From Planctomycetota bacterium (GTDB lineage Bacteria > Planctomycetota > Planctomycetia > Planctomycetales > Planctomycetaceae), in NCBI GenBank assembly GCA_003670925.1, contig QWQG01000230.1, positions 1-34,637 on the forward strand: a DNA stretch of 34,637 bases, written 5' to 3'. The translations under genes were made by a program, and so were the position numbers. The notes beneath the pieces were generated by a model, which saw only the letters and a list, made by a program, of their open reading frames with translations, was not told where the DNA came from and ran no database searches. This document shows, in pieces, positions 12,099 to 33,051 of this stretch; the first letter of the stretch is position 1, and the number at the start of each line of letters is the position of its first letter.

Positions 12099-12326
12099 AT
12101 GGCAGATCCTAGCGACGTTCAGCGAAAATATAAGGAATTCCTTGATCTACTTCCGCTGACTTTGACATTGGCCGGACTACCGCCGAGCGAACACGGGCGC
12201 TATTTTACCACTGAGCAAATCGAATCGCGATTGTTCACGATTCGACATGCGTGGAAAGCCGCCCGTCAAGTCACTCGCGAATGTGTCCAGCCCAGCTCCG
12301 CCTCTTCATCGCCGGACGTCGGTTGA
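12099..12326 (+). CDS. Small conserved hypothetical protein (75 aa)
   Basis: I recognise no named family. The protein is 75 residues, soluble and probably helical: MADPSDVQRKYKEFLDLLPL, then TLTLAGLPPSEHGRYFTTEQ, then an IESRLFTIRHAWKAARQVTR helix and a Ser-rich end. The compact conserved-looking pattern of a short helix, a LAGLPPSE turn and a basic helix, together with a clean ATG, supports a real gene. From memory, similar proteins are found in other planctomycetes. Its last 21 bases overlap the 3' end of the convergent dxs gene, so the two messages are antisense there. It may be co-transcribed with the FHA gene 90 bp upstream, subject to the hairpins between them. Confidence 0.75.
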   Translation: MADPSDVQRKYKEFLDLLPLTLTLAGLPPSEHGRYFTTEQIESRLFTIRHAWKAARQVTRECVQPSSASSSPDVG

Positions 12327-14210
12327 GGCAGGGGTTTGGCAGAGTTGTTTTGCGACACGCACGAGTCCATTTGTATCGAGGCCGAGTTCAGCCAGCAACT
12401 CGTCGCGGTCGCCATGTTCCACGAATGCGTCAGGGATGGCTAGAATGCGGAAGCGTTCGGTGTTGAGCACATGGCGATTCGCAGCCTCCAAGACAGCACT
12501 TCCAAAGCCCCCCATCAGGGCGTTCTCTTCGAGCGTGATGACAAACCCCGTAGCGGCGGCTTTGGCAATGACTTCTTCGTCGACAGGTTTGACGAATCTT
12601 GCGTTGACAACTCCAACGCTGAGGCCTTCGCGACGAAGTTGTTCGGCAGCGGCAACGGCCTGAGACAGCATTGTGCCGCACGCAAGAATATTCCCGTCTT
12701 GCCCCCATGACAGGACTTCCGCCTTGCCCAGTTGAACAGGTGCTACGTCGCGTGGGACTTGTTCGACTTTCGTCTTTGGATAGCGAATCGAAACTGGTGA
12801 CGTGCTGGCCAATGCGAAATCCAGCATCGCGCGAATTTCCAGCTCGTCGCCAGGTGCGGTCACGATCATGTTTGGAAAGATCCGCATATAGCTGTTGTCG
12901 AACACGCCATGATGAGTCGGTCCGTCAGGGCCACATAGGCCAGCTCGATCAAGACAGAACACGACCGGCAGATTCTGAAGCGCAACTTCCTGAAAGATCT
13001 GGTCAAAGCTCCGCTGCAAAAATGTACTGTAGATGTCCACGATCGGTCTCATCCCCGATTTCGCCATCCCTCCGGCAAACGCCACGGCGTGGCTTTCGCA
13101 GATGCCGGTGTCGAAGAAACGCTCAGGGAATTCGTCGCGGATCCGCTCCAGTTTATTACCAGCACACATGGCGGCCGTCAGGACGCAGACTCGTTCGTCT
13201 TCGCCCATGGCTTTGTGAATTGCATCAGACATAATGTCCGTGTACGAAATCTCCGACGACTTCTTGACCAGTACAATTTCATTGTCAGGATCTCGTTTGA
13301 ACGGCGAAGGCGTGTGAAACTTCACGGGATCCTTGCAGGCCGGCTCGAAACCATGTCCTTTTTCAGTGAAGACATGCAACAAAACCGGGCCCTTCACATC
13401 GCGAACCAGTTCCAGATAACGCCGCAAAGATTTTATGTCGTGCCCGTCTACCGGGCCGAGATAACGGAATCCCATTTCTTCGAAAAGCATCCCGCCGTGG
13501 AGGAATGATTTCAAGGCATCCTTGAAACCGCTCAGCATCTTCTCCGTGGACTCACCGACGAGCGGTACCTTATTCAACAGCCAGGCGACATCTCGCTTCA
13601 GCCCGTTGTAGAATGGGGCAACTCTTGCCTTGTCCAGATAACTTGCCAACCCGCCGACTCGAGGACAGATGCCCATCTTGTTGTCGTTCAGAATCACTAG
13701 CAGATCTTTCTTTAGACCGGCGGCGTTGTTCATGGCTTCAAAGACAATCCCCGAAGGCAGCGCACCATCACCGATAACGGCCACGGATTTTCGACCGTCT
13801 TGGAAGAGCAGGTCGTCCGCCGCTTTCATGCCAAGCACCGTCGAGACGCTACTGCCCGCATGCCCCGTGACAAAGAGATCGTATTCACTTTCTGCGGGAT
13901 TCGGATATCCCATCAATCCGCCGCGACGACGAATGCTTGAGAACTGATCAAAGCGTCCGGTAATCAGCTTGTGAGGATAAATCTGGTGGCCCGTGTCCCA
14001 AATCAGACGATCTTTTGAAAAATCAAAAGTAAGATGCAAAGCAATACAGAGTTCGACCACACCCAGATTGCTGGCAAAGTGTGCCGCGCGGTCGGACACA
14101 ATCGTGAGCAACGCTTCACGAATCTCATCCGCCAACTGGACAAGCTTCGTTTCGCTCAGTGTGCTCAGGTCTTTCGGGGATCGGATGCCGCTTAAAATCT
14201 CAAATGACAT
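12306..14210 (-). CDS. dxs: 1-Deoxy-D-xylulose-5-phosphate synthase
   Basis: DXS condenses pyruvate and glyceraldehyde 3-phosphate with thiamine diphosphate, the first step of the MEP isoprenoid pathway. The 634-residue protein has the normal family length. Motifs visible are HFASNLGVVEL with H44 (equivalent to E. coli H49), IWDTGHQIYPHK, the TPP/Mg site GDGA (147-150) with N175-x-N177, and the GICESHAVAFAGGMA segment with the catalytic glutamate. The transketolase C-terminal domain follows. It starts at ATG 14210, 12 bp after the prenyl diphosphate synthase, so ispA-dxs form an operon as in many bacteria. The 3' end overlaps the convergent small gene by 21 bp. Identification is firm. Confidence 0.97.
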   Translation of the reverse strand: MSFEILSGIRSPKDLSTLSETKLVQLADEIREALLTIVSDRAAHFASNLGVVELCIALHLTFDFSKDRLIWDTGHQIYPHKLITGRFDQFSSIRRRGGLMGYPNPAESEYDLFVTGHAGSSVSTVLGMKAADDLLFQDGRKSVAVIGDGALPSGIVFEAMNNAAGLKKDLLVILNDNKMGICPRVGGLASYLDKARVAPFYNGLKRDVAWLLNKVPLVGESTEKMLSGFKDALKSFLHGGMLFEEMGFRYLGPVDGHDIKSLRRYLELVRDVKGPVLLHVFTEKGHGFEPACKDPVKFHTPSPFKRDPDNEIVLVKKSSEISYTDIMSDAIHKAMGEDERVCVLTAAMCAGNKLERIRDEFPERFFDTGICESHAVAFAGGMAKSGMRPIVDIYSTFLQRSFDQIFQEVALQNLPVVFCLDRAGLCGPDGPTHHGVFDNSYMRIFPNMIVTAPGDELEIRAMLDFALASTSPVSIRYPKTKVEQVPRDVAPVQLGKAEVLSWGQDGNILACGTMLSQAVAAAEQLRREGLSVGVVNARFVKPVDEEVIAKAAATGFVITLEENALMGGFGSAVLEAANRHVLNTERFRILAIPDAFVEHGDRDELLAELGLDTNGLVRVAKQLCQTPASTDVRR

Positions 14211-14222
14211 GCTTGTCGTACC

Positions 14223-15299
14223 TTAGTGATCTCGTTCCACAATAAACCGGGCCAGTTCCCTTAGCCATCGGCTGCGATCACCAAACACGGCGATCTCGTC
14301 ACATGCTTCCTGCACCAGTTGTTCAGCCTTCGCGCGGCTGCATTCGATTCCCAGTAAACCGGGATATGTGAGTTTTCCAAGATCTGCATCGCGGCCTGGC
14401 TTCTTGCCAAGCCGAGTTTGGTCACCGGTCACATCCAAGAGATCATCAGCAATTTGAAACGCCAATCCGATGCAATGGCCAAAACGGCGAAGCCGATTCC
14501 TGCTGTCTGCATCCGCGGATGCCGTCGCGGCACCCAATTCTAGAGCCCCTGCGATGAGCGCCCCGGTCTTCATTCTATGGATTTGACTGAGTTCTACGAC
14601 GCGCGTCTCTGCCGTTCGGTTGGAATCACTCGAGCCAAAATCAGGGATTAAGGGGGATCTCTCACCCTGAACACCGGCAGAATCCGCCGAATTCACATCC
14701 TTCTGAACCGCGGTCACACCTGCTTCGCAACGGTGTTCGCCGGTATTCTTCAGTTGCATTTCAGCATTCTTGACGTTTACAAACGCCTCGTGTTCCGCTT
14801 CCAGATCCAACACTTGACCACCGACCATGCCTGATCCGCCAGCCGCTGAGGCCAGAATTCGTGTCTGCTCGGCGATCTGCAGGCCACTGATTGTGCCGGC
14901 CCCGGTGACGGACGTCGCGATAGTTTCAAACGCCAGCGTTAACAGGCAGTCACCCGCCAGAATTGCGAGCGCTTCGCCAAATACTTTGTGGCTTGTCAGC
15001 CGGCCGCGGCGAAAATCGTCATCATCCATTGAAGGCAGGTCGTCATGAATCAGCGAATACGTATGCACCATCTCGATAGCGCATGCTGCCGGAATCGCGT
15101 CTTCCTGCTTGCCGCCACACACTTCGTTCGCCAACAACACCAACACCGGCCGCAACCGCTTTCCGCCTGCCAGCAGACTGTATTCGACAGCAGACTTCAG
15201 ACGACCCGGCCAACTCACCTTGGCCAGTTCTTCCACCAGCGCAGCTTCAATCATCGCTCGAAGTTCGTGCAGATGTTCTGTGAAGACCGAATTTGTCAT
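14223..15299 (-). CDS. ispA: Polyprenyl (farnesyl/geranylgeranyl) diphosphate synthase
   Basis: The enzyme adds isopentenyl diphosphate units to an allylic primer, giving C15 or C20 diphosphates for quinone, hopanoid or carotenoid synthesis. It is 358 residues from ATG 15299. Motifs are GGKRLRP (45-51), the first aspartate-rich motif DDLPSMDDDD (86-95), HRMKTGALI (241-249), and the second aspartate-rich motif FQIADDLLD (281-289). The family is usually about 290-300 residues; the excess is an insertion of roughly 60 residues (about 171-234) between GQVLDLEAE and the KTG motif. The insertion is hydrophilic and does not resemble the family. It is followed 12 bp later by dxs, which supplies its substrates. 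Product chain length cannot be told with certainty. Confidence 0.93.
   Translation of the reverse strand: MTNSVFTEHLHELRAMIEAALVEELAKVSWPGRLKSAVEYSLLAGGKRLRPVLVLLANEVCGGKQEDAIPAACAIEMVHTYSLIHDDLPSMDDDDFRRGRLTSHKVFGEALAILAGDCLLTLAFETIATSVTGAGTISGLQIAEQTRILASAAGGSGMVGGQVLDLEAEHEAFVNVKNAEMQLKNTGEHRCEAGVTAVQKDVNSADSAGVQGERSPLIPDFGSSDSNRTAETRVVELSQIHRMKTGALIAGALELGAATASADADSRNRLRRFGHCIGLAFQIADDLLDVTGDQTRLGKKPGRDADLGKLTYPGLLGIECSRAKAEQLVQEACDEIAVFGDRSRWLRELARFIVERDH
14598..14789 (-). other. In-frame insertion within the prenyl synthase gene
   Basis: About 190 bases encode a segment not expected in the family, between GQVLDLEAE and ELSQIHRMKTG. It includes two short inverted repeats: GAACACCG (14669-14676) with CGGTGTTC (14731-14738), and CGTTT-AC-AAACG (14774-14785). 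The reading frame is kept, and both catalytic motifs are intact on either side. Exact limits are uncertain by several codons. Confidence 0.6.
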
Positions 15300-15431
15300 G
15301 ACAAGCCGGACATGGAAGTTAAAAGTACGGCAGCAAATCCCTGCCGAATCTAAACACATGAAGCATATTGTTCGCAGCACTTCCGCGAAAGCGATCCATT
15401 GCAGTGAGAAACGAACCATCTTCGCTCCGAA

Positions 15432-16751: not shown

Positions 16752-17054
16752 TTACATATCGCGAAACAACCTGCGAAAATCCCGTGTGCCATCAACCACG
16801 CGATGCACAATGATGCCTTCGTCAATCGGTTCGTAGACAATCACATACCGAGTGTGCCGAAATATTCGAAAGCGACTGCCCAGACCGGAGTGAATCGTGC
16901 CCATCAACGGTTGATTCGCATATTGCTGCGACTTTGCGACGATTTCATCAATCAGCTTCAACGCGACTGTCGGACGGGTATCTCGAACTGCTATGTAAAA
17001 CGCAAGATCTTCGAGTTCTGCTTCCGCTCTCGGGGTCCACAGCACGCTGGTCAT
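16752..17054 (-). CDS. parE: ParE/RelE-superfamily toxin
   Basis: This 100-residue protein has the pattern of a ParE-type toxin of a type II toxin-antitoxin system: W-T-P-R-A-E-A-E-L-E-D at the start, a helix pair, and the C-terminal strands RFRIFRHTRYVIVYEPID and VHRVVDGTRDF. ParE toxins poison DNA gyrase, while the related RelE toxins cut mRNA. The RVVDGTRD-like end and the preceding GSRFRIF fit ParE better. Its ATG overlaps the stop of the upstream gene by four bases (ATGA), the standard arrangement with the antitoxin first. Which target it hits is not certain. Confidence 0.88.
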   Translation of the reverse strand: MTSVLWTPRAEAELEDLAFYIAVRDTRPTVALKLIDEIVAKSQQYANQPLMGTIHSGLGSRFRIFRHTRYVIVYEPIDEGIIVHRVVDGTRDFRRLFRDM

Positions 17055-17431: not shown

Positions 17432-18163
17432 TCAGGACATCGACCGCGAGAGCTTGTCCTGGTCCGAAAGTGCATCTCGCCACCACAACCACGCGAACAG
17501 CAAGACCAAAATCGCCGCCGTCCATTGGTAGGCTGTCAAACCAGACACGTCGCGAGCCTCAGGGCGCACATATTCGCTCAGAAAGCGATACACGCAGTAG
17601 CTGATGAAATACAGTTTGATCAGCTGATTCCTGAACATGCCCCTGTTCTGCAACGACGCGAGTACAATCGCCGCCGTCAGATGAAACATGAATTCGTACA
17701 CCTGAGTCGGATGGCGTGGCAGGCGATCGACAGCGGGAAAGATGAGACCCCACGGCAGAGTCGTGGGCGTCCCGTAGCAGCAGCCCCCAGCCAGACACGA
17801 TAAGCGTCCAACGGCGATTGAACCGGCCACCGGCACGGCAAACGAATCGCCCGTCTTGACCGTGATGCCAAGTCTCCACTTCACCAGTTCAACACCAAAA
17901 TAGCCGCCCACCAGTCCGAACAGAATCGTCTTGCCCGACATGAAAAACGCGGAACCATCCCGCATTCCGTCTGGATCCAACAAAACAAACGGCAACTTGG
18001 CCATCACCATCGCGCCGATGAATGCACCGAGCCCGATCCAGAGACTTTCGAATGGACTTAGCCGCGGATCAGGCTTCTGCCTGCCCTTCAGCCAGACACC
18101 CGTCGCCAAGGCTGACATCATTAATATCGGATACAGCAGGATGGCCCATTCCGGCACGGTCAT
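17432..18163 (-). CDS. Lgt-fold membrane protein (diacylglyceryl transferase-like)
   Basis: The 243-residue protein belongs to the prolipoprotein diacylglyceryl transferase superfamily, with about seven membrane segments. It shows G-R120-L-S in AVGRLSCLAGGCCYGTPT, where R120 sits like the essential arginine of E. coli Lgt, and the family motif RHPTQVYE (150-157). The canonical HGG-loop is not present: the matching stretch reads GKTILFGLVGG, so the key histidine of true Lgt is missing. The GGCCYG motif marks a separate Lgt-like subfamily. It follows a Tes-like radical SAM gene by 55 bp on the same strand, so the two are probably one operon. A lipid- or lipoprotein-modifying role is plausible, but it is unlikely to be the housekeeping Lgt. 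Confidence 0.85.
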   Translation of the reverse strand: MTVPEWAILLYPILMMSALATGVWLKGRQKPDPRLSPFESLWIGLGAFIGAMVMAKLPFVLLDPDGMRDGSAFFMSGKTILFGLVGGYFGVELVKWRLGITVKTGDSFAVPVAGSIAVGRLSCLAGGCCYGTPTTLPWGLIFPAVDRLPRHPTQVYEFMFHLTAAIVLASLQNRGMFRNQLIKLYFISYCVYRFLSEYVRPEARDVSGLTAYQWTAAILVLLFAWLWWRDALSDQDKLSRSMS

Positions 18164-18218
18164 GGCACGACTTCTTTAAATGTCGCCTTCTCGCTCTCAT
18201 CACGGCAGAGCGTGATAG

Positions 18219-19703
18219 CTACATTTTTTGAGACACGGCACGTTGCCGCGTCCCCGATTTTTGAATGAGCGGTGGTAATTGCACGTGGCCATTTCGATAC
18301 AGCACGTTGTACGCTGAGAATGGCACAAGATGGCCGCTCGGCAACACAAAGTGCACACATTCCTTCATCAGTTGCCGCACGTCGAAATTGTAAGCATCCA
18401 TAAACGACGTCGTCGTGATCCGGAACATGTCGCAAGGATTCAAGCTTTCGGTCAAGGCACGAGTAAAGAACTGCGTCGCGTCTGCCATGATTTCTGGGGG
18501 CAAGTCTGGTTGCCCGTTTCGCGAACCCAACGAAGTCCCGAGCGACACTTCACCACAACCACAATCTCCGCCGCCACAAGCCTGACGAGACAGATACTGG
18601 CCAATGAGTTCTCGCGCTCGTTCGCGATTGAAAGTGATCCGGCCCGACAGCAGATCCAAATGCTTATCGAGATCCACAAAACGTGCCAGCGGCGTGACGC
18701 GATTGCCAGATCGATATGCATACGACAGCGTGTGTCCGTTTGGGTGTGCACATGGCAGTGGAGCGAAGTCCGTTTCCTGCCACTGTGTCGATTGCGCTGC
18801 AACAGCCTTGATCACATCGGGAAACGTGATGCGTTTTTCCAGCGTCTCCGGCAACACAAATCGACCGGAATATGTCGCGGGTTGAAAACTGACGCCCGTG
18901 ATCCACGGTCGCTCAATTCCAAATTCCACCAGTCGCCCGATTTCATGATCGTTGACACCCGGCTGCACGGTGCATACCAAGATCGTATTCAGCCCGACGT
19001 CACCAAGCTGTTCAATGGCCTTCAATTTCGTTTCCAGCAGTGAGGCACCTCGCAGTGTCCGATAGCCAGCATCCTCAAACGTATCGAACTGCAGGTAGAT
19101 TTCAGTGCGATGCTTTCGCTCGGCAAGACTTTCCAGAAACGCTCGATCACGAGCTAGGCGAATGCCGTTCGTGTTGATCATCACGATGTCGATCGGTTGA
19201 TCGCAGGCGTATCGATAAATCTCTTCAAAGTGTGGATGAATCGTCGGTTCGCCGCCCGACAGTTGCAGAATCTCCGGCTGGCCTTCGACTTCCACCAAGC
19301 GGTCAATCGCGGCTTTGCAATCGTCCAGCGACAAATGCGTGCCACCTGGGCCGCTCACCGCAAAGCACATCGGGCATTCGAGATTGCAGGCTGAGTTGAT
19401 CTCCAATAAGCCAATGCACGTATGCTGTTCGTGTTCAGTGCAGAGACCACAGTCATACGGGCAGCCACGATCCGGTTCGACACCAAACGAAACCGGCACT
19501 TTGCCCGGAAGGCTGTAATCTGTCCGATCAAACCACTTTGCATCGCTGCAGACAAAATCTTCCCGAATGCCATGGACCGCGCACGTCTTTCGGAAATAGA
19601 TTCGCCCGCCTCGCGAGATCACCTTCGCCGGCACAAGCGCCAGGCAATCCGGACAAAGGCTCTGTGTCAAACTCAGAAACGTATAGTCGCGATACGTCGT
19701 CAT
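18219..19703 (-). CDS. Radical SAM protein of the Tes/MJ0619 type
   Basis: The 494-residue protein matches the family of archaeal tetraether lipid synthase (Tes), which joins lipid tails by a radical C-C bond. Features in order: an N-terminal zinc-ribbon-like Cys set (C17-x2-C20, C41-x2-H44), an extra Cys motif RGCPYDCGLC plus C96 that would bind a further cluster, the radical SAM motif C106-x3-C110-x2-C113 in NSACNLECPMCFA, SGGEP (149-153) for SAM, then INTNGIRLA, EIYLQFD, PGVNDHEIG and SFQPATYSGR, all close to MJ0619 as I remember it. A late ACGGGDCGC (C376, C381, C383) is an added Cys cluster. Start is ATG 19703. Bacterial relatives have been linked to membrane-spanning lipids. The Lgt-like gene follows directly. 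The substrate here is inferred only. Confidence 0.88.
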   Translation of the reverse strand: MTTYRDYTFLSLTQSLCPDCLALVPAKVISRGGRIYFRKTCAVHGIREDFVCSDAKWFDRTDYSLPGKVPVSFGVEPDRGCPYDCGLCTEHEQHTCIGLLEINSACNLECPMCFAVSGPGGTHLSLDDCKAAIDRLVEVEGQPEILQLSGGEPTIHPHFEEIYRYACDQPIDIVMINTNGIRLARDRAFLESLAERKHRTEIYLQFDTFEDAGYRTLRGASLLETKLKAIEQLGDVGLNTILVCTVQPGVNDHEIGRLVEFGIERPWITGVSFQPATYSGRFVLPETLEKRITFPDVIKAVAAQSTQWQETDFAPLPCAHPNGHTLSYAYRSGNRVTPLARFVDLDKHLDLLSGRITFNRERARELIGQYLSRQACGGGDCGCGEVSLGTSLGSRNGQPDLPPEIMADATQFFTRALTESLNPCDMFRITTTSFMDAYNFDVRQLMKECVHFVLPSGHLVPFSAYNVLYRNGHVQLPPLIQKSGTRQRAVSQKM

Positions 19704-19826: not shown

Positions 19827-20153
19827 TCATCTCTTCAGTGAACGGACAACCTTCAAAAATCCCTTGACCGTAAAAACGAATGCCGCGACCGTTGTCAGGC
19901 CTGCGACCACAAACACAACTGCTAATCCAAAACCACTCGGCATGCGGGCAACGGGCCCAACGGAAATCACGCCAAGACAAGTGACGACAAATGTAGCACA
20001 AAACGTAAGCACCGCGACGGCAAGGCCCGTCATGACCGAAAACACGATCGCGACTGGTCCCGGCTGACTGCGATCACTTACAGACGTGGCGATGTCTGCA
20101 ACTTGAGACGCGAGGTAGGGGTTTTCTTCAGGTTGAGGTGTTGGTTCATTCAT
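19827..20153 (-). CDS. Small two-helix membrane protein (108 aa)
   Basis: I do not recognise a functional family. From ATG 20153 the protein begins MNEPTPQPEENPYLASQ, a short disordered leader with an NPY motif that is typical of many planctomycete small membrane proteins. Two hydrophobic helices follow: GPVAIVFSVMTGLAVAVLTF plus the adjoining FVVTCLGVI, and FGLAVVFVVAGLTTVAAFVF, ending with the basic tail KVVRSLKR. It therefore probably sits in the inner membrane with the charged tail in the cytoplasm. Its start overlaps the end of the aldo/keto reductase by eight bases, so it is co-transcribed and likely translationally coupled. An upstream in-frame extension would run far into the reductase gene and was not used. 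Confidence 0.75.
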   Translation of the reverse strand: MNEPTPQPEENPYLASQVADIATSVSDRSQPGPVAIVFSVMTGLAVAVLTFCATFVVTCLGVISVGPVARMPSGFGLAVVFVVAGLTTVAAFVFTVKGFLKVVRSLKR

Positions 20154-21123
20154 AAATCGGACAGAACGTATCAAAGGCTGATTCGCAGAAGACTCCCGGA
20201 TCATTGAAGCGGCGATGGCGATCCAGTTCTGAGATTGATTGCATCTCGTCGTCACTGAGTTCAAAATCGAACAACTGCAGATTCTCTTTCATCCGCGTCA
20301 CGTCTGAAGTCTTCGGGATCACGGACGTCCCGCGTTGCACACCCCACCGCAGCAGCACCTGAGCAGCGGACCGATGTTTCTCCAAGGCGATGCACTGCAC
20401 GATCCGATGATCAAGTAATGATTCTGAAGCATTTGCCATACCCAAGCTATAGTAACTGGCTGCTCCGAGCGGCGAAAATGCGGTGAAGGCAATCCCTTCC
20501 TGCTGGCAGTACCGCAGCAACTTTGCCTGCACCAGAAACGGATGCGATTCCACCTGCAGCACCGACGGGCGAATGCGTGCATACGACAGCAGATCCCGCA
20601 GCAAACTGGTTCCAAAATTGCAGATGCCGATGTGTTTCACCAGCCCATCATCCACAAGTTTCTCCATTGCCGCCCATGTTTCGCTGAGCGGTACGCGAAC
20701 TTCCTCCATGCAGGGTTTTGCGGCAGCCGGATCAAAAAACCATCCGGGCGGATAGCGGACATCGAGCGAGACATATCTCTGTGCGATTGGAAAGTGCATC
20801 AGATACAGATCGAGTTGTTTCAGACCCAAATCTTGCAATGATTTTTCACATGCTATGCTCACATGTTCAGCAGCGTGATAAGTGTTCCACAGCTTTGACG
20901 TCACCCACAGGTCATCCCGCCGGCAAAGCCCGGCTTCCATGGCCTGCGCGATCCCATGGCCGACTTCCATTTCATTGCCGTAATCGCAGGCGCAATCCAG
21001 ATGACGGTATCCGGCGGCAATCGCCTGCTGCGCAACTTCGGCGGCGCTGGCTTTTTCTACTTTCCAGAATCCAAATCCCACCGACGGTAACAGAGCGCCG
21101 TTCGAAACAGGCAGTGTGATCAT
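20146..21123 (-). CDS. Aldo/keto reductase
   Basis: An NADPH-dependent reductase of aldehydes or sugars, 325 residues from ATG 21123, with the normal AKR length. The complete catalytic tetrad is present at D43, Y48, K77 and H110, the same numbers as human aldose reductase. The cofactor-binding end IPKTSDVTRMKEN is also clear. The segment RYVSLDVRYPPGW resembles the xylose/aldose reductase branch (AKR1/AKR2) rather than the small bacterial AKR5 group. Possible substrates are pentoses or D-glucuronate; the window also has an inositol oxygenase, which makes glucuronate, but the genes are 12 kb apart, so a link is speculative. The gene diverges from the DUF4404 gene and overlaps the small membrane protein. 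Confidence 0.93.
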   Translation of the reverse strand: MITLPVSNGALLPSVGFGFWKVEKASAAEVAQQAIAAGYRHLDCACDYGNEMEVGHGIAQAMEAGLCRRDDLWVTSKLWNTYHAAEHVSIACEKSLQDLGLKQLDLYLMHFPIAQRYVSLDVRYPPGWFFDPAAAKPCMEEVRVPLSETWAAMEKLVDDGLVKHIGICNFGTSLLRDLLSYARIRPSVLQVESHPFLVQAKLLRYCQQEGIAFTAFSPLGAASYYSLGMANASESLLDHRIVQCIALEKHRSAAQVLLRWGVQRGTSVIPKTSDVTRMKENLQLFDFELSDDEMQSISELDRHRRFNDPGVFCESAFDTFCPIYE

Positions 21124-21251
21124 AATAGCCTCAACAAATTGATGAACCAACGAGCGTCGTGCGACAGAAGCTGGTACCATATCAGGCTGACCGTGCCTTG
21201 TCTCCTTGTCGTTCAGAGGCAGTAAAGTCATTTGATTTCAGGAGTAGAAAG

Positions 21252-31292: not shown

Positions 31293-31614
31293 AGCGTTGC
31301 CAATTTCTCGTTAGGATGGACATTCCGATCCGCTGAATGGCCAAAAACGCTCTCGAATCGAAAATTCCTTTGCCTCGGGAAATCCCTCCTATGGCTGTAT
31401 TTACGGGATGAAGACGCGGCGATGATTGTGCAAGGTACTGCAATCTCACGCGACTCGGAGAGTCAAGCGACAGAAATCCCGCCAACCGAGGGAATCCGGA
31501 AATCCGGTTGTGGCCCTTTTCCGCTTTGCCGATAGACTGTCGGACGTCAAAACGTTGGAATGCAACATCAAGGCAGCACTTCGACTAAACCCCCTGTTCA
31601 AAAGTATTCGCTCA
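31293..31614. other. 322-bp intergenic region before rimO
   Basis: No gene is convincing here. It contains a degenerate copy of the TAGGATGGACATTCC repeat at 31312-31326. An in-frame upstream extension of rimO to 31426 codes for a basic, non-conserved stretch and is rejected. The rimO promoter should be in this region. Confidence 0.55.
31312..31326 (+). repeat. Degenerate copy of the TAGGATGG(G/A)CATTC repeat
   Basis: The 15 bases TAGGATGGACATTCC are identical to 33849-33863. The right arm of the hairpin is GATCC instead of TGTCC, so only three of the five base pairs remain. Confidence 0.75.
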
Positions 31615-33051
31615 ATGACATCACTCCCGATCATCGACCTGCCCGAATCACGCCCATTGCCGCAAAGTGTTTCCGGCGAACCTGGCCCCTCCAAAGGCAC
31701 ATATGCCTTCGTGAGTCTGGGATGCCCTAAAAATCTTGTCGACAGTGAAAAGATGTTGGGCTCACTGTCGTTAGATGGCTATTCGCTGGTTTCCGACCCT
31801 GATGGCGCGGATTTTGTGATTGTCAATACCTGTGGCTTTATTGAAAGTTCCCGGCAGGAGTCGCGCTCTGTCATTCAAGAGATGCTGGACCTGAAAAAGG
31901 AAGGTAAAACGAAAGGCGTGATTGTGGCCGGTTGCTTGCCTCAACGACTGGAAGCAGACGGTGGCCTCCTCAAGGAAATGCCGGATATCGATCACGTCGT
32001 CGGTGTTTTCGGACGTGATGAAATCACCAAAGTCGCCGATCGGCTTGTGGGTGGAAACCGGGAACAACGGGAACTCTTTCGTCCCGCTCCGATCAAGGCG
32101 ATGAACGATCAATCGCGACTCCGGATCACGCCGGCCCACTATGCTTATCTGAAGATTTCCGAAGGCTGCGATCGAACCTGCACGTTCTGTTCAATTCCAT
32201 CGATGCGTGGTAAGCACGTGACCAAGCCGATTGAAATGGTGCTGGATGAAGCGCGGGAACTGGTCGATGACGGCATGCGTGAGCTGATCATCGTGGCGCA
32301 AGACACGACGTATTATGGCATGGACATTTACGGCGAGGTGCGTCTGGCGGAACTCCTGCGACAACTGCAAAAAGTCGATGGCATTGACTGGATTCGGTTG
32401 ATGTATCTCTACCCGATCAACTTTTCAGACGAACTGATCGACGTCATTGCCGATTCGGGTAATATCCTGCCTTATCTCGACATGCCACTTCAACACATTA
32501 ATTCTGCAGTGCTGAAACGCATGCAACGTCGTGTCAATTCCGATCAAACTCGGGAGCTTGTCAGCAAGCTCCGGGAGCGAATTCCCAACGTGGTTCTGCG
32601 CACCACGTTCATTACAGGATTTCCTGGTGAAACCGATCAGCAGTTTGAAGAACTGCGACAATTCGTTGAGGAAACTCGCTTCGAACGCATGGGCGTCTTC
32701 ACCTATTCGTTGGAACCAGGCACGCCGGCCGTGAAGCTGGAAGGACATCTCCCAGAAGACGTCAAAGAAGCCCGCCGCGACGAACTGATGGCGTTGCAGC
32801 AGAAGATTGCTTTTGAGCATGCCGACACGATGATCGGTTATGAACTGGATGTGCTGATCGACGAAGAAATTGGTGACGGCGTTTATGTGGGCCGATCCTA
32901 TGCGGATGCCCCCGAGATTGATGCCAACGTCATTGTCCGTGGCGTGGATTTGCAGCCGGGCGATATGGTACCGGTCGAAATCATGGAGCGACAGGATTAT
33001 GACTTAGTCGGCATGGTTGCGGATGTCCTAGCCGAAGAGGCTGACGAGTAG
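31615..33051 (+). CDS. rimO: Ribosomal protein S12 methylthiotransferase
   Basis: RimO is a radical SAM enzyme that adds a methylthio group to an aspartate of ribosomal protein S12. From ATG 31615 it is 478 residues. The N-terminal cluster cysteines are C37 in VSLGCPKNLVDSE, C73 in NTCGF and C107 in VAGCLPQR. The radical SAM motif C185-x3-C189-x2-C192 (EGCDRTCTFCSIP) follows. The sequence IPSMRGK and the LGCPKN start are specific to RimO rather than MiaB. A C-terminal TRAM domain ends the protein (about 415-475). The ATG gives the family's normal N-terminus; a longer upstream frame was rejected. It is followed after 170 bp by pgsA on the same strand. Confidence 0.97.
   Translation: MTSLPIIDLPESRPLPQSVSGEPGPSKGTYAFVSLGCPKNLVDSEKMLGSLSLDGYSLVSDPDGADFVIVNTCGFIESSRQESRSVIQEMLDLKKEGKTKGVIVAGCLPQRLEADGGLLKEMPDIDHVVGVFGRDEITKVADRLVGGNREQRELFRPAPIKAMNDQSRLRITPAHYAYLKISEGCDRTCTFCSIPSMRGKHVTKPIEMVLDEARELVDDGMRELIIVAQDTTYYGMDIYGEVRLAELLRQLQKVDGIDWIRLMYLYPINFSDELIDVIADSGNILPYLDMPLQHINSAVLKRMQRRVNSDQTRELVSKLRERIPNVVLRTTFITGFPGETDQQFEELRQFVEETRFERMGVFTYSLEPGTPAVKLEGHLPEDVKEARRDELMALQQKIAFEHADTMIGYELDVLIDEEIGDGVYVGRSYADAPEIDANVIVRGVDLQPGDMVPVEIMERQDYDLVGMVADVLAEEADE

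Follow-up and report, generated by a model that had tools for sequence, protein, structure and literature searches.

The archaeal tetraether synthase GDGT-MAS (Tes; PDB 7tol/7tom) is the described enzyme that the radical SAM (rSAM) protein of this study resembles in full-length fold. In the available text of its structure paper (PMC9433317) GDGT-MAS is MJ0619 itself, so the earlier note on this DNA was mistaken in treating MJ0619 as a comparator separate from Tes, and the authors of that paper state that they were unable to corroborate pterin methylation, the old annotation of MJ0619. The same paper gives Met439 and Tyr459 as completely conserved among 1000 archaeal Tes homologues and reports that the GDGT-MAS variants M439A and Y459F retained activity. 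PMC8941075 presents what bacterial Tes homologues do as an open question, tied to the origin of the branched tetraethers in climate proxies. For E. coli Lgt (PDB 5azb), roles of the active-site residues have been described, with His103 being essential (PMC4728403).

Two lipidation systems are also close to what is seen here. The MYXO-CTERM/myxosortase system likewise has an invariant non-lipobox Cys at a C-terminal transmembrane (TM) helix, with Lgt-like lipidation predicted and the lipidating enzyme not identified (PMC11980579). Unlike in the small proteins of our module, its Cys stands before the helix, giving the opposite topology, and the tail is cut off by a protease; rSAM is not mentioned in the available text of that paper (0 occurrences). 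The RiPP-lipoprotein hybrid DybA is a modified ribosomal product with diacylglyceryl, for which the Lgt pathway is proposed (PMC12636315, preprint), but it has a standard lipobox signal peptide, and an MNIO (multinuclear iron) enzyme stands where our module has an rSAM.

The window, meaning the whole stretch of DNA that was analysed, is 34,637 nucleotides long and comes from a Planctomycetota bacterium (contig QWQG01000230.1). It holds an rSAM gene, an Lgt-like gene and a gene for a small membrane protein (Table 1). The module is present in many planctomycetes, including the cultured Lacipirellula limnantheis (L047) and Rhodopirellula baltica (L105), and a few unrelated bacteria, and looks like an undescribed way to attach or alter protein lipids. 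The module itself is well supported, while its chemistry is what we infer.

Table 1. Genes of the module and the flanking reductase gene, with positions in the window.
Feature	Position	Strand	Description
Lgt-like integral membrane protein gene	17432..18163	(-)	243 aa; R143 and R239 of E. coli Lgt have equivalents, H103 is substituted
Tes-like rSAM gene	18219..19703	(-)	494 aa; rubredoxin-like C17/C20/C41/H44; N-terminal cluster motif C81/C85/C88/H91; rSAM cluster C106/C110/C113; further conserved cysteines C318, C376, C381, C449
Small membrane protein gene (putative substrate)	19827..20153	(-)	108 aa; NPY N-terminus, helix ending ..TFVVTCLG.., second helix
Aldo/keto reductase gene	20146..21231	(-)	3' end overlaps start of small gene by 8 nt

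Pairing of the radical SAM and Lgt-like genes

The coordinates confirm where the earlier note had placed the two genes, on the same strand and with the Lgt-like gene starting 55 bp past the rSAM stop. One scan of genome contigs with the planctomycete rSAM gave 136 relatives, and in 59 of the best 80 loci the Lgt-like gene lies within 600 bp of the rSAM gene on the same strand. Among 99 planctomycete genomes, 30 carry the rSAM (E 1e-80), and the Lgt-like gene (E 1e-12) was found in 29 of these 30 and in one of the 69 without the rSAM, there as a weak match. The Fisher p for this co-occurrence is 1e-22, a value that overstates independence because the genomes are related. The pair was also within 600 bp and on the same strand in 20 of 24 further genomes of the phylum; these were taken from 33 matched ones, leaving out four that belong to the same class as the window (G000, G042, G064 and G073) and five weaker matches (G130, G141, G151, G161 and G243), three of which are FAS-type tandem pairs. 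Outside the planctomycetes, the two genes adjoin in Bacteroidota (Persicobacter) and Actinomycetota (Nonomuraea and mycobacterial plasmids), and the adjacency thus recurs in three phyla. It is far beyond chance. An rSAM-lgt region reported as variably present among Pseudarthrobacter single-cell genomes (PMC12010503) might correspond to this module.

In 16 of the 80 loci, no Lgt-like gene was found in the locus DNA examined, despite room for one. This would fit a chance or housekeeping neighbourhood with no functional link between the genes; however, five of these loci match fully searched genomes, four of which have the gene on another contig. Together with the adjacency in three phyla and the co-occurrence above, which contradicts it, this makes a chance neighbourhood almost certainly the wrong explanation. 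The conservation of the adjacency, which the earlier note had proposed to check, was borne out because the pairing of the rSAM with an Lgt-family protein is kept across phyla. The rSAM, the Lgt-like protein and the small proteins very probably make up one functional unit.

The radical SAM protein and its described relatives

The window rSAM matches Pfam Radical_SAM (80 bits) and an N-terminal zinc ribbon (PF23545, 61.8 bits), and the motifs that had been named for it are present in the translation. Across 80 rSAM rows, window included, C81, C85, C88, H91, C106, C110 and C113 are kept in all 80, the rubredoxin-type C17, C20 and C41 in 79 and H44 in 77; the N-terminal cluster cysteines are missing from the actinobacterial module rSAMs. 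These rubredoxin, N-cluster and rSAM ligand motifs are common to GDGT-MAS. The AlphaFold2 model (pLDDT 78, pTM 0.83, with three loops that contain cluster cysteines, 86-92, 106-120 and 377-398, at pLDDT below 50) matched 7tom and 7tol with TM 0.72-0.73 over about 500 columns and 30% identity in the structural alignment, and the remaining fold matches reached at most 0.36 by query length. For the structure alignments, 24 loci out of 79 and 24 out of 56 were used, plus the window.

Judged on sequence, the window rSAM is not a Tes, whether one goes by its curated score or by the pair of archaeal-invariant residues. Its NCBIfam Tes score is 271.4 bits, under the cut-off of 450. Position 432, aligned with Met439 of GDGT-MAS, is Thr in 79 of 80 rows with one gap, and position 452, aligned with Tyr459, is His in 58, Phe in 17 and Asn in 4, again with one gap. 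The C-terminal cysteines are remodelled, with Gly323, Glu448 and Ser463 in the window rSAM where the C-terminal domain of GDGT-MAS aligns Cys; across the 80 rows, Cys occupies all three of these positions in 38, one of them in 8 and none in 34. Since the window rSAM is without these three cysteines, radical storage of the Tes type is doubtful in it. The partner genes differ from those of GDGT-MAS too. The Tes-likeness that the earlier note had proposed therefore stands as far as the full-length tetraether-synthase build is concerned, but does not extend to the curated score or to Met439 and Tyr459.

With such a full-length match to GDGT-MAS, the rSAM could be coupling the tails of ordinary phospholipids into membrane-spanning lipids, the Lgt-like and small proteins being accessory. 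Branched-tetraether synthesis has been proposed for bacterial Tes homologues (PMC8941075), and their reported presence in 110 of 684 Black Sea Planctomycetota MAGs (PMC11868695) can be counted for this explanation as well. However, coupling of free lipids has no need of a dedicated Lgt-like partner or of a conserved Cys in a small protein, and the absence of Met439 and Tyr459 also argues against it, which leaves it unlikely.

The top NCBIfam score of the window rSAM, 321.7 bits over near-whole length, is to the TrsS radical SAM (seleno)protein (NF045646) and is above that for Tes (322 versus 271 bits), though the TrsS cut-off of 490 is not reached. The rSAM could accordingly modify a cofactor or small molecule in a reaction that has nothing to do with lipid, the membrane proteins serving as its partners, and haloarchaeal and Mycolicibacterium homologues do adjoin a methyltransferase with no Lgt-like gene listed alongside. 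These methyltransferase-linked homologues differ from the module, in which the Lgt-like partner recurs and no methyltransferase was seen among the identified neighbourhood clusters present in at least 6 of 80 loci. We consider a TrsS-like role very unlikely.

A viperin-type defence function was rejected, with PADLOC pVip covering only part of the rSAM core at 39 bits. In the rSAM tree, a single clade of all Lgt-linked rSAMs was not rejected (p-AU 0.336), a result that does not demonstrate a clade, and the MJ0619 row sits on a long branch of 2.38. One in three of the 80 window-type loci, together with the window, L181 and L189, gave 30 rows of the tree (L180 being identical to L102). A further 23 rows were Persicobacter-type, with L163 and L179 lost, and L124 was included as well, whereas L126 and L127 failed the filters.

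The Lgt-like protein and the small membrane proteins

The window Lgt-like protein matches the LGT family (PF01790) at 99.3 bits against a gathering score of 24.9, and E. coli Lgt (5azb) was the sole fold match of its model at E<=0.001, with TM 0.64 by query length. The lgt equivalog scores were not reached (TIGR00544, 48.5 versus 118.9; NF000778, 77 versus 334). In 38 rows (15 window-type, from every fourth locus, 20 Persicobacter-type and 3 actinobacterial), the equivalents of E. coli R143 and Y235 are present in all 38, R239 in 37 and E202 in 36, whereas those of His103 and Asn146 are kept in none, being replaced by Leu, Val, Thr or Met and by Cys, respectively. The protein is a second copy, as the genome encodes another Lgt, which is also without both residues. 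It had been called non-canonical, and it is unusual compared with E. coli Lgt, but some of its odd active-site letters are common to the other Lgt of the genome.

The pair is accompanied by adjacent small membrane proteins, frequently as tandem copies, most of which have a Cys at one end of a TM helix. Among the 16,895 ORFs of the examined loci, an iterated profile of the main planctomycete family (NPY) picked out 60, and 56 of these lie on the same strand no more than 2.5 kb from the rSAM or Lgt-like gene. The column conserved best in this family is the Cys (60 of 60), although iteration itself selects in part for conserved positions. When a profile of 13 members was run on the 99 genomes, 11 matched, all among the 30 rSAM carriers (p 4e-7); the match in G042 was weak and had internal stops, and when it is left out, 10 of 10 matched genomes are rSAM carriers (p 2e-6). 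The actinobacterial small protein was matched in 3 of 72,556 plasmid records, at five places, of which the three listed adjoin the pair, and in the examined loci all 5 matches to its profile are beside the pair. The Cys column is complete (5 of 5) in both the actinobacterial and the L115 families.

The alignment of the L189-type family is without a Cys column, none stood out in the G042 family, where two of the seven tandem copies have no Cys, and the Persicobacter-type small protein of L169 is without Cys. Seven seeds were used for the family alignments; one gave two matches only, and the seeds c_persico and, in part, z_znTM drifted onto shadow ORFs and were excluded from the counts. The NPY family was not matched in 37 of the 80 loci, some of which have other small TM-Cys proteins and some of which have none that was recognised. 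A small ORF with a C-tail Cys adjoins in 10 of the 22 Persicobacter-type loci (L158-L179), and in L162, L171, L173, L176, L177 and L179 the pair is present with no such ORF beside it. In a crude test, hydrophobic C-termini close to the module were not enriched in Cys within their last 22 residues (32 of 77 versus 26 of 73 elsewhere, p 0.50); one family's Cys follows its first helix, and the control includes unverified ORFs.

The lipobox of ordinary lipoproteins follows the pattern [LVI][ASTVI][GAS]C. By eye, an N-terminal lipobox was absent from the small proteins examined, the Cys context being FVVTCLG at residue 59 in the window protein and ..SAGICTG at the C-terminus in the actinobacterial one; a few tails (e.g., LLIAC in L189) fit the pattern, yet at the C-terminus.

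Small, tandem-duplicated, variable ORFs next to an rSAM gene are typical of RiPP loci, and the tandem copies seen here (seven in G042, five in L115, four in L170 and three in L165) resemble these. It is conceivable that the small proteins are RiPP-like precursors that the rSAM modifies near the helix end, by a crosslink, epimerisation or thioether, with the Lgt-like enzyme lipidating or anchoring the product, and DybA (PMC12636315, preprint) would be a precedent for combining RiPP maturation with lipidation through the Lgt pathway. However, among the fold matches peptide maturases match the core of the rSAM only (SkfB, 6efn, TM 0.35), as opposed to the lipid enzyme over full length, and the conserved positions of the NPY family are chiefly the Cys, the residues next to it and the N-terminal NPY, with no leader/core pattern seen. 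Peptide modification therefore seems rather unlikely.

A possible lipidation scheme and the flanking genes

In the scheme that we prefer, the small membrane proteins would present their Cys at the outer (periplasmic) end of a TM helix, in the geometry of a lipobox Cys but with no lipobox; this topology is suggested by positive charges on the presumed cytoplasmic flank. Given its family, its fold and its kept R143/R239 centre, the Lgt-like enzyme would transfer diacylglyceryl from phosphatidylglycerol to this Cys, with no cleavage of a signal peptide of the kind seen in ordinary lipoproteins. The Tes-like rSAM, because of its full-length likeness to GDGT-MAS, may act on the hydrocarbon tails of the protein-bound lipid or of the lipid donor, for example by joining tail ends, and the outcome would be a small protein anchored through an unusual lipid. 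The absence of His103, which is essential in E. coli, from all the Lgt-like rows counts against this scheme, although the other Lgt of the genome is likewise without it. The crude Cys test, the loci with no recognised small protein, the small proteins that have no Cys, the actinobacterial rSAMs without N-terminal cluster cysteines and the three missing C-terminal cysteines of the window rSAM weigh against it too.

On balance, we lean slightly towards lipidation of the small proteins by the Lgt-like enzyme, and we put the chances of the whole scheme, including the lipid-tail role of the rSAM, somewhat short of even. A more specific form, in which bacterial proteins would be anchored via a tail-coupled membrane-spanning lipid, the Lgt-like enzyme placing diacylglyceryl on the outer-face Cys and the rSAM welding its tail ends to an inner-leaflet lipid, is quite unlikely. 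The earlier note had suggested a two-gene lipid module, either for tail coupling or for modification of a diacylglyceryl-linked molecule. It overlooked the small TM-Cys proteins, and these lead us to favour the second alternative.

Through this module, bacterial Tes homologues acquire a definite genetic setting and a putative protein substrate that can be tested. If a second Lgt does lipidate a non-lipobox Cys, this would be an added branch of bacterial protein lipidation, and if the rSAM works on protein-bound lipid, it would be a chemistry of which we know no description.

Among the other neighbouring genes, the aldo/keto reductase gene and an upstream six-helix gene (22 of 80 loci) were rejected as parts of the module since their conservation is too narrow. 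A scan of promoters and terminators was uninformative, with 2 promoters (2.2 in shuffles) and 7 terminators (4.7 +/- 2.6). The aldo/keto reductase and small genes are perhaps on one transcript. A similar ORF is found upstream of the small gene in locus L117.

Conservation of the gene pair

Both genes lie where the earlier note had placed them, with a Tes-like radical SAM (rSAM) gene followed after 55 bp by a gene for a relative of the diacylglyceryl transferase Lgt. The genome that holds the window (5.78 Mb in 259 contigs) yields a single match to this rSAM and encodes two LGT proteins, of which the second is the closer fit to the family (192 bits against 100 for the Lgt-like protein). Downstream of the module are a toxin gene and, on the same strand, isoprenoid genes; the polyprenyl synthetase is matched in two stretches, which suggests an insertion in that protein.

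Features of the window around the gene pair
Feature	Coordinates	Strand	Remarks
DXS	12306-14210	-	after polyprenyl synthetase
Polyprenyl synthetase	14223-15419	-	
ParE/RelE-type toxin	16752-17054	-	downstream of Lgt-like gene
Lgt-like protein	17432-18163	-	Pfam LGT
rSAM	18219-19703	-	Pfam Radical_SAM and PF23545 zinc ribbon
Small membrane protein, 108 aa	19827-20153	-	starts inside the end of the aldo/keto reductase gene; ends 123 bp before rSAM
Second radical SAM protein	31426-33051	+	RimO-type methylthiotransferase (518 bits), different family

The earlier note had read this adjacency as suggesting a small module for lipid tail coupling or for modifying a diacylglyceryl-linked molecule, and across genomes in several phyla the adjacency is conserved. 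Genome contigs supplied 80 named loci, the best 80 of 136 relatives. The Lgt-like gene lies within 600 bp downstream of the rSAM on the same strand in 59 and 3.5 kb off in one, the contig ends too soon in four, and no Lgt-like gene was found in the locus DNA of 16. In 99 related genomes the rSAM (E 1e-80 or better) and the Lgt-like protein (1e-12) were each found in 30, and 29 of the 30 rSAM genomes have both. The two genes are at most 700 bp apart in 22 of these 30 and at most 4 kb apart in three more; the Lgt-like gene is on another contig in four and missing in one (G014). A Persicobacter query, which matched 33 of 246 genomes, revealed a second clade within Planctomycetota; of the 24 of these genomes searched for the Lgt-like gene, 20 have it at most 600 bp away and on the same strand. 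Outside Planctomycetota, plasmid records carry the pair in Persicobacter (L121), Nonomuraea (L122), Mycobacterium branderi (L123) and an M. avium plasmid (L125), the last two with two small genes between. In the tree, the window-type, Persicobacter-type, actinobacterial and fatty-acid-synthase-cluster rSAMs each fall on one side of a branch, and a single clade of all Lgt-linked rSAMs is not rejected (p-AU 0.336).

Bacterial Tes homologues have been described before: untested proposals link them to branched tetraethers (PMC8941075), and they have been reported in Planctomycetota in a paper whose retrieved sections do not mention 'Lgt' (PMC11868695). A 3.5-kb region with a radical SAM gene and lgt, present in three Pseudarthrobacter single-cell genomes and missing in one, receives one passing mention in the retrieved text of PMC12010503. 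We found no description of the combination in open-licence PMC papers.

Identity of the two enzymes

The architecture of the rSAM is Tes-like, with Tes chemistry putative. By sequence its closest solved structure is the archaeal tetraether synthase GDGT-MAS (7tol, E 4e-72; family profile, 2e-95), and its AlphaFold2 model (pLDDT 78; confidence is low in the loops that carry several cluster sites) matches 7tom and 7tol with a TM of 0.72-0.73 over ~500 columns, the remaining PDB entries listed reaching at most 0.36 by query length. Rubredoxin, N-terminal cluster and rSAM sites are retained in 77 to 80 of 80 aligned rows; the N-terminal cluster cysteines are absent from the actinobacterial relatives. 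By curated NCBIfam score the protein is in neither Tes (271 bits, cut-off 450) nor the radical SAM family TrsS (322, cut-off 490), since both scores are under cut-off. Met439 and Tyr459 of GDGT-MAS, described as invariant across 1000 archaeal homologues (PMC9433317), align with Thr432 and Phe452 in the window; position 432 is T in 79 of 80 rows and position 452 is H in 58, F in 17 and N in 4. The GDGT-MAS variants M439A and Y459F retained activity (PMC9433317). The cysteines aligned with the C-terminal ones of GDGT-MAS (positions 323, 448 and 463) vary nearly together across the family, with all three in 38 rows, none in 34 and one in 8; the window rSAM has none of them and retains Cys318, Cys376, Cys381 and Cys449.

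For the Lgt-like model (pLDDT 92), E. coli Lgt was the sole significant PDB match. In an alignment of 38 members covering three types, R143 (38/38) and R239 (37/38), proposed as catalysts of diacylglyceryl transfer (PMC4728403), have retained counterparts, as do Y235 (38/38) and E202 (36/38). The counterpart of H103, essential in E. coli Lgt (PMC4728403), is His in no member, and that of N146 is Cys in all 38. The window genome's other Lgt (L002) has Tyr at the H103 position and Cys at N146, and its signature motif contains GCC. It too has thus lost residues that E. coli Lgt cannot do without, and these shared changes, taken alone, need not argue against transferase activity of the Lgt-like protein.

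Small membrane proteins and a proposed mechanism

Small membrane proteins encoded beside the pair make up a probable third part of the module, represented in the window by the 108-aa protein. An iterated profile of the main planctomycete small-protein family (NPY), built from one relative and run on 16,895 ORFs, matched 60, of which a script placed 56 on the same strand as the rSAM or Lgt-like gene and no more than 2.5 kb from it. Two further matches adjoin a truncated rSAM (L112), and two multi-copy loci (L065 and L087) have one each elsewhere in the locus. The matches cover 43 of the 80 loci (best 80 of 136), with two or three copies in 14, and the best-conserved column is a Cys located where the first helix ends (60/60). 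Of the 99 genomes, 11 have matches to a 13-member profile; these 11 all belong to the 30 that carry the rSAM, and in five of them the matches are on other contigs only. The match in G042 is weak and has internal stops.

Other groups have small proteins of their own. The actinobacterial ones end in a terminal helix and (I/V/L/Y)CTG(L/I)NP..Y, found at five places in 3 of 72,556 plasmid records; one further actinobacterial neighbour gene product lacks this tail. L115 carries a tandem array of five in which the Cys lies at least three residues before the end, L170 has four small proteins, and Persicobacter has one, ending in ..GTGICGSLLS. In G042 (L189) the rSAM and Lgt-like genes are separated by genes for seven related small proteins, of which five have Cys in the last 12 residues and two have no Cys. 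Cys is near the end of the last helix in six of seven aligned Persicobacter-type proteins, the exception being L169, whose genome (76% complete) gave no Lgt-like match. Against this pattern, a search showed such a small Cys ORF in only 10 of 22 Persicobacter-type loci, in six the pair has no such neighbour, and a crude test for Cys showed no enrichment near the module.

By the positive-inside rule the Arg/Lys-rich flanks, judged by eye, would leave the Cys facing outward. Its position relative to the membrane is that of a lipobox Cys, and with an adjacent Lgt relative that has the transfer centre, the most economical reading is that the Lgt-like enzyme would transfer diacylglyceryl to the small-protein Cys. 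In work on MYXO-CTERM, a non-lipobox Cys is the predicted site of Lgt-like lipidation (PMC11980579). The rSAM could act on the peptide, but its likeness to GDGT-MAS, which binds two lipids, their tails lying in hydrophobic pockets (PMC9433317), makes this the less likely substrate, and we think it more likely that the rSAM acts on lipid tails.

Relatives in other settings

In homologues from two haloarchaeal plasmids and Mycolicibacterium (L126, L127 and L124) a methyltransferase gene directly follows the rSAM, an arrangement resembling the TrsS-type pair, and Lgt is absent from their listed neighbours. Four genomes have two tandem Tes-like rSAM genes in a fatty-acid-synthase-like cluster (L113 1-9158 in G006, L182, L183 and L184), which in L113 includes, by reading, ketosynthases, an acyl carrier protein, and dehydratase- and reductase-like genes. 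No Lgt-like gene was found in L182-L184, and the cluster is a candidate pathway for tail-coupled fatty acids. In 22 of the 80 loci (best 80 of 136) a gene for a multi-helix membrane protein lies upstream of the rSAM gene and on its strand; the copy in L043 (8274-9053) has no Pfam match. A gene that reads as rhodanese-like adjoins the rSAM in two genomes (L117 10738-11199 and L114 4456-4860).
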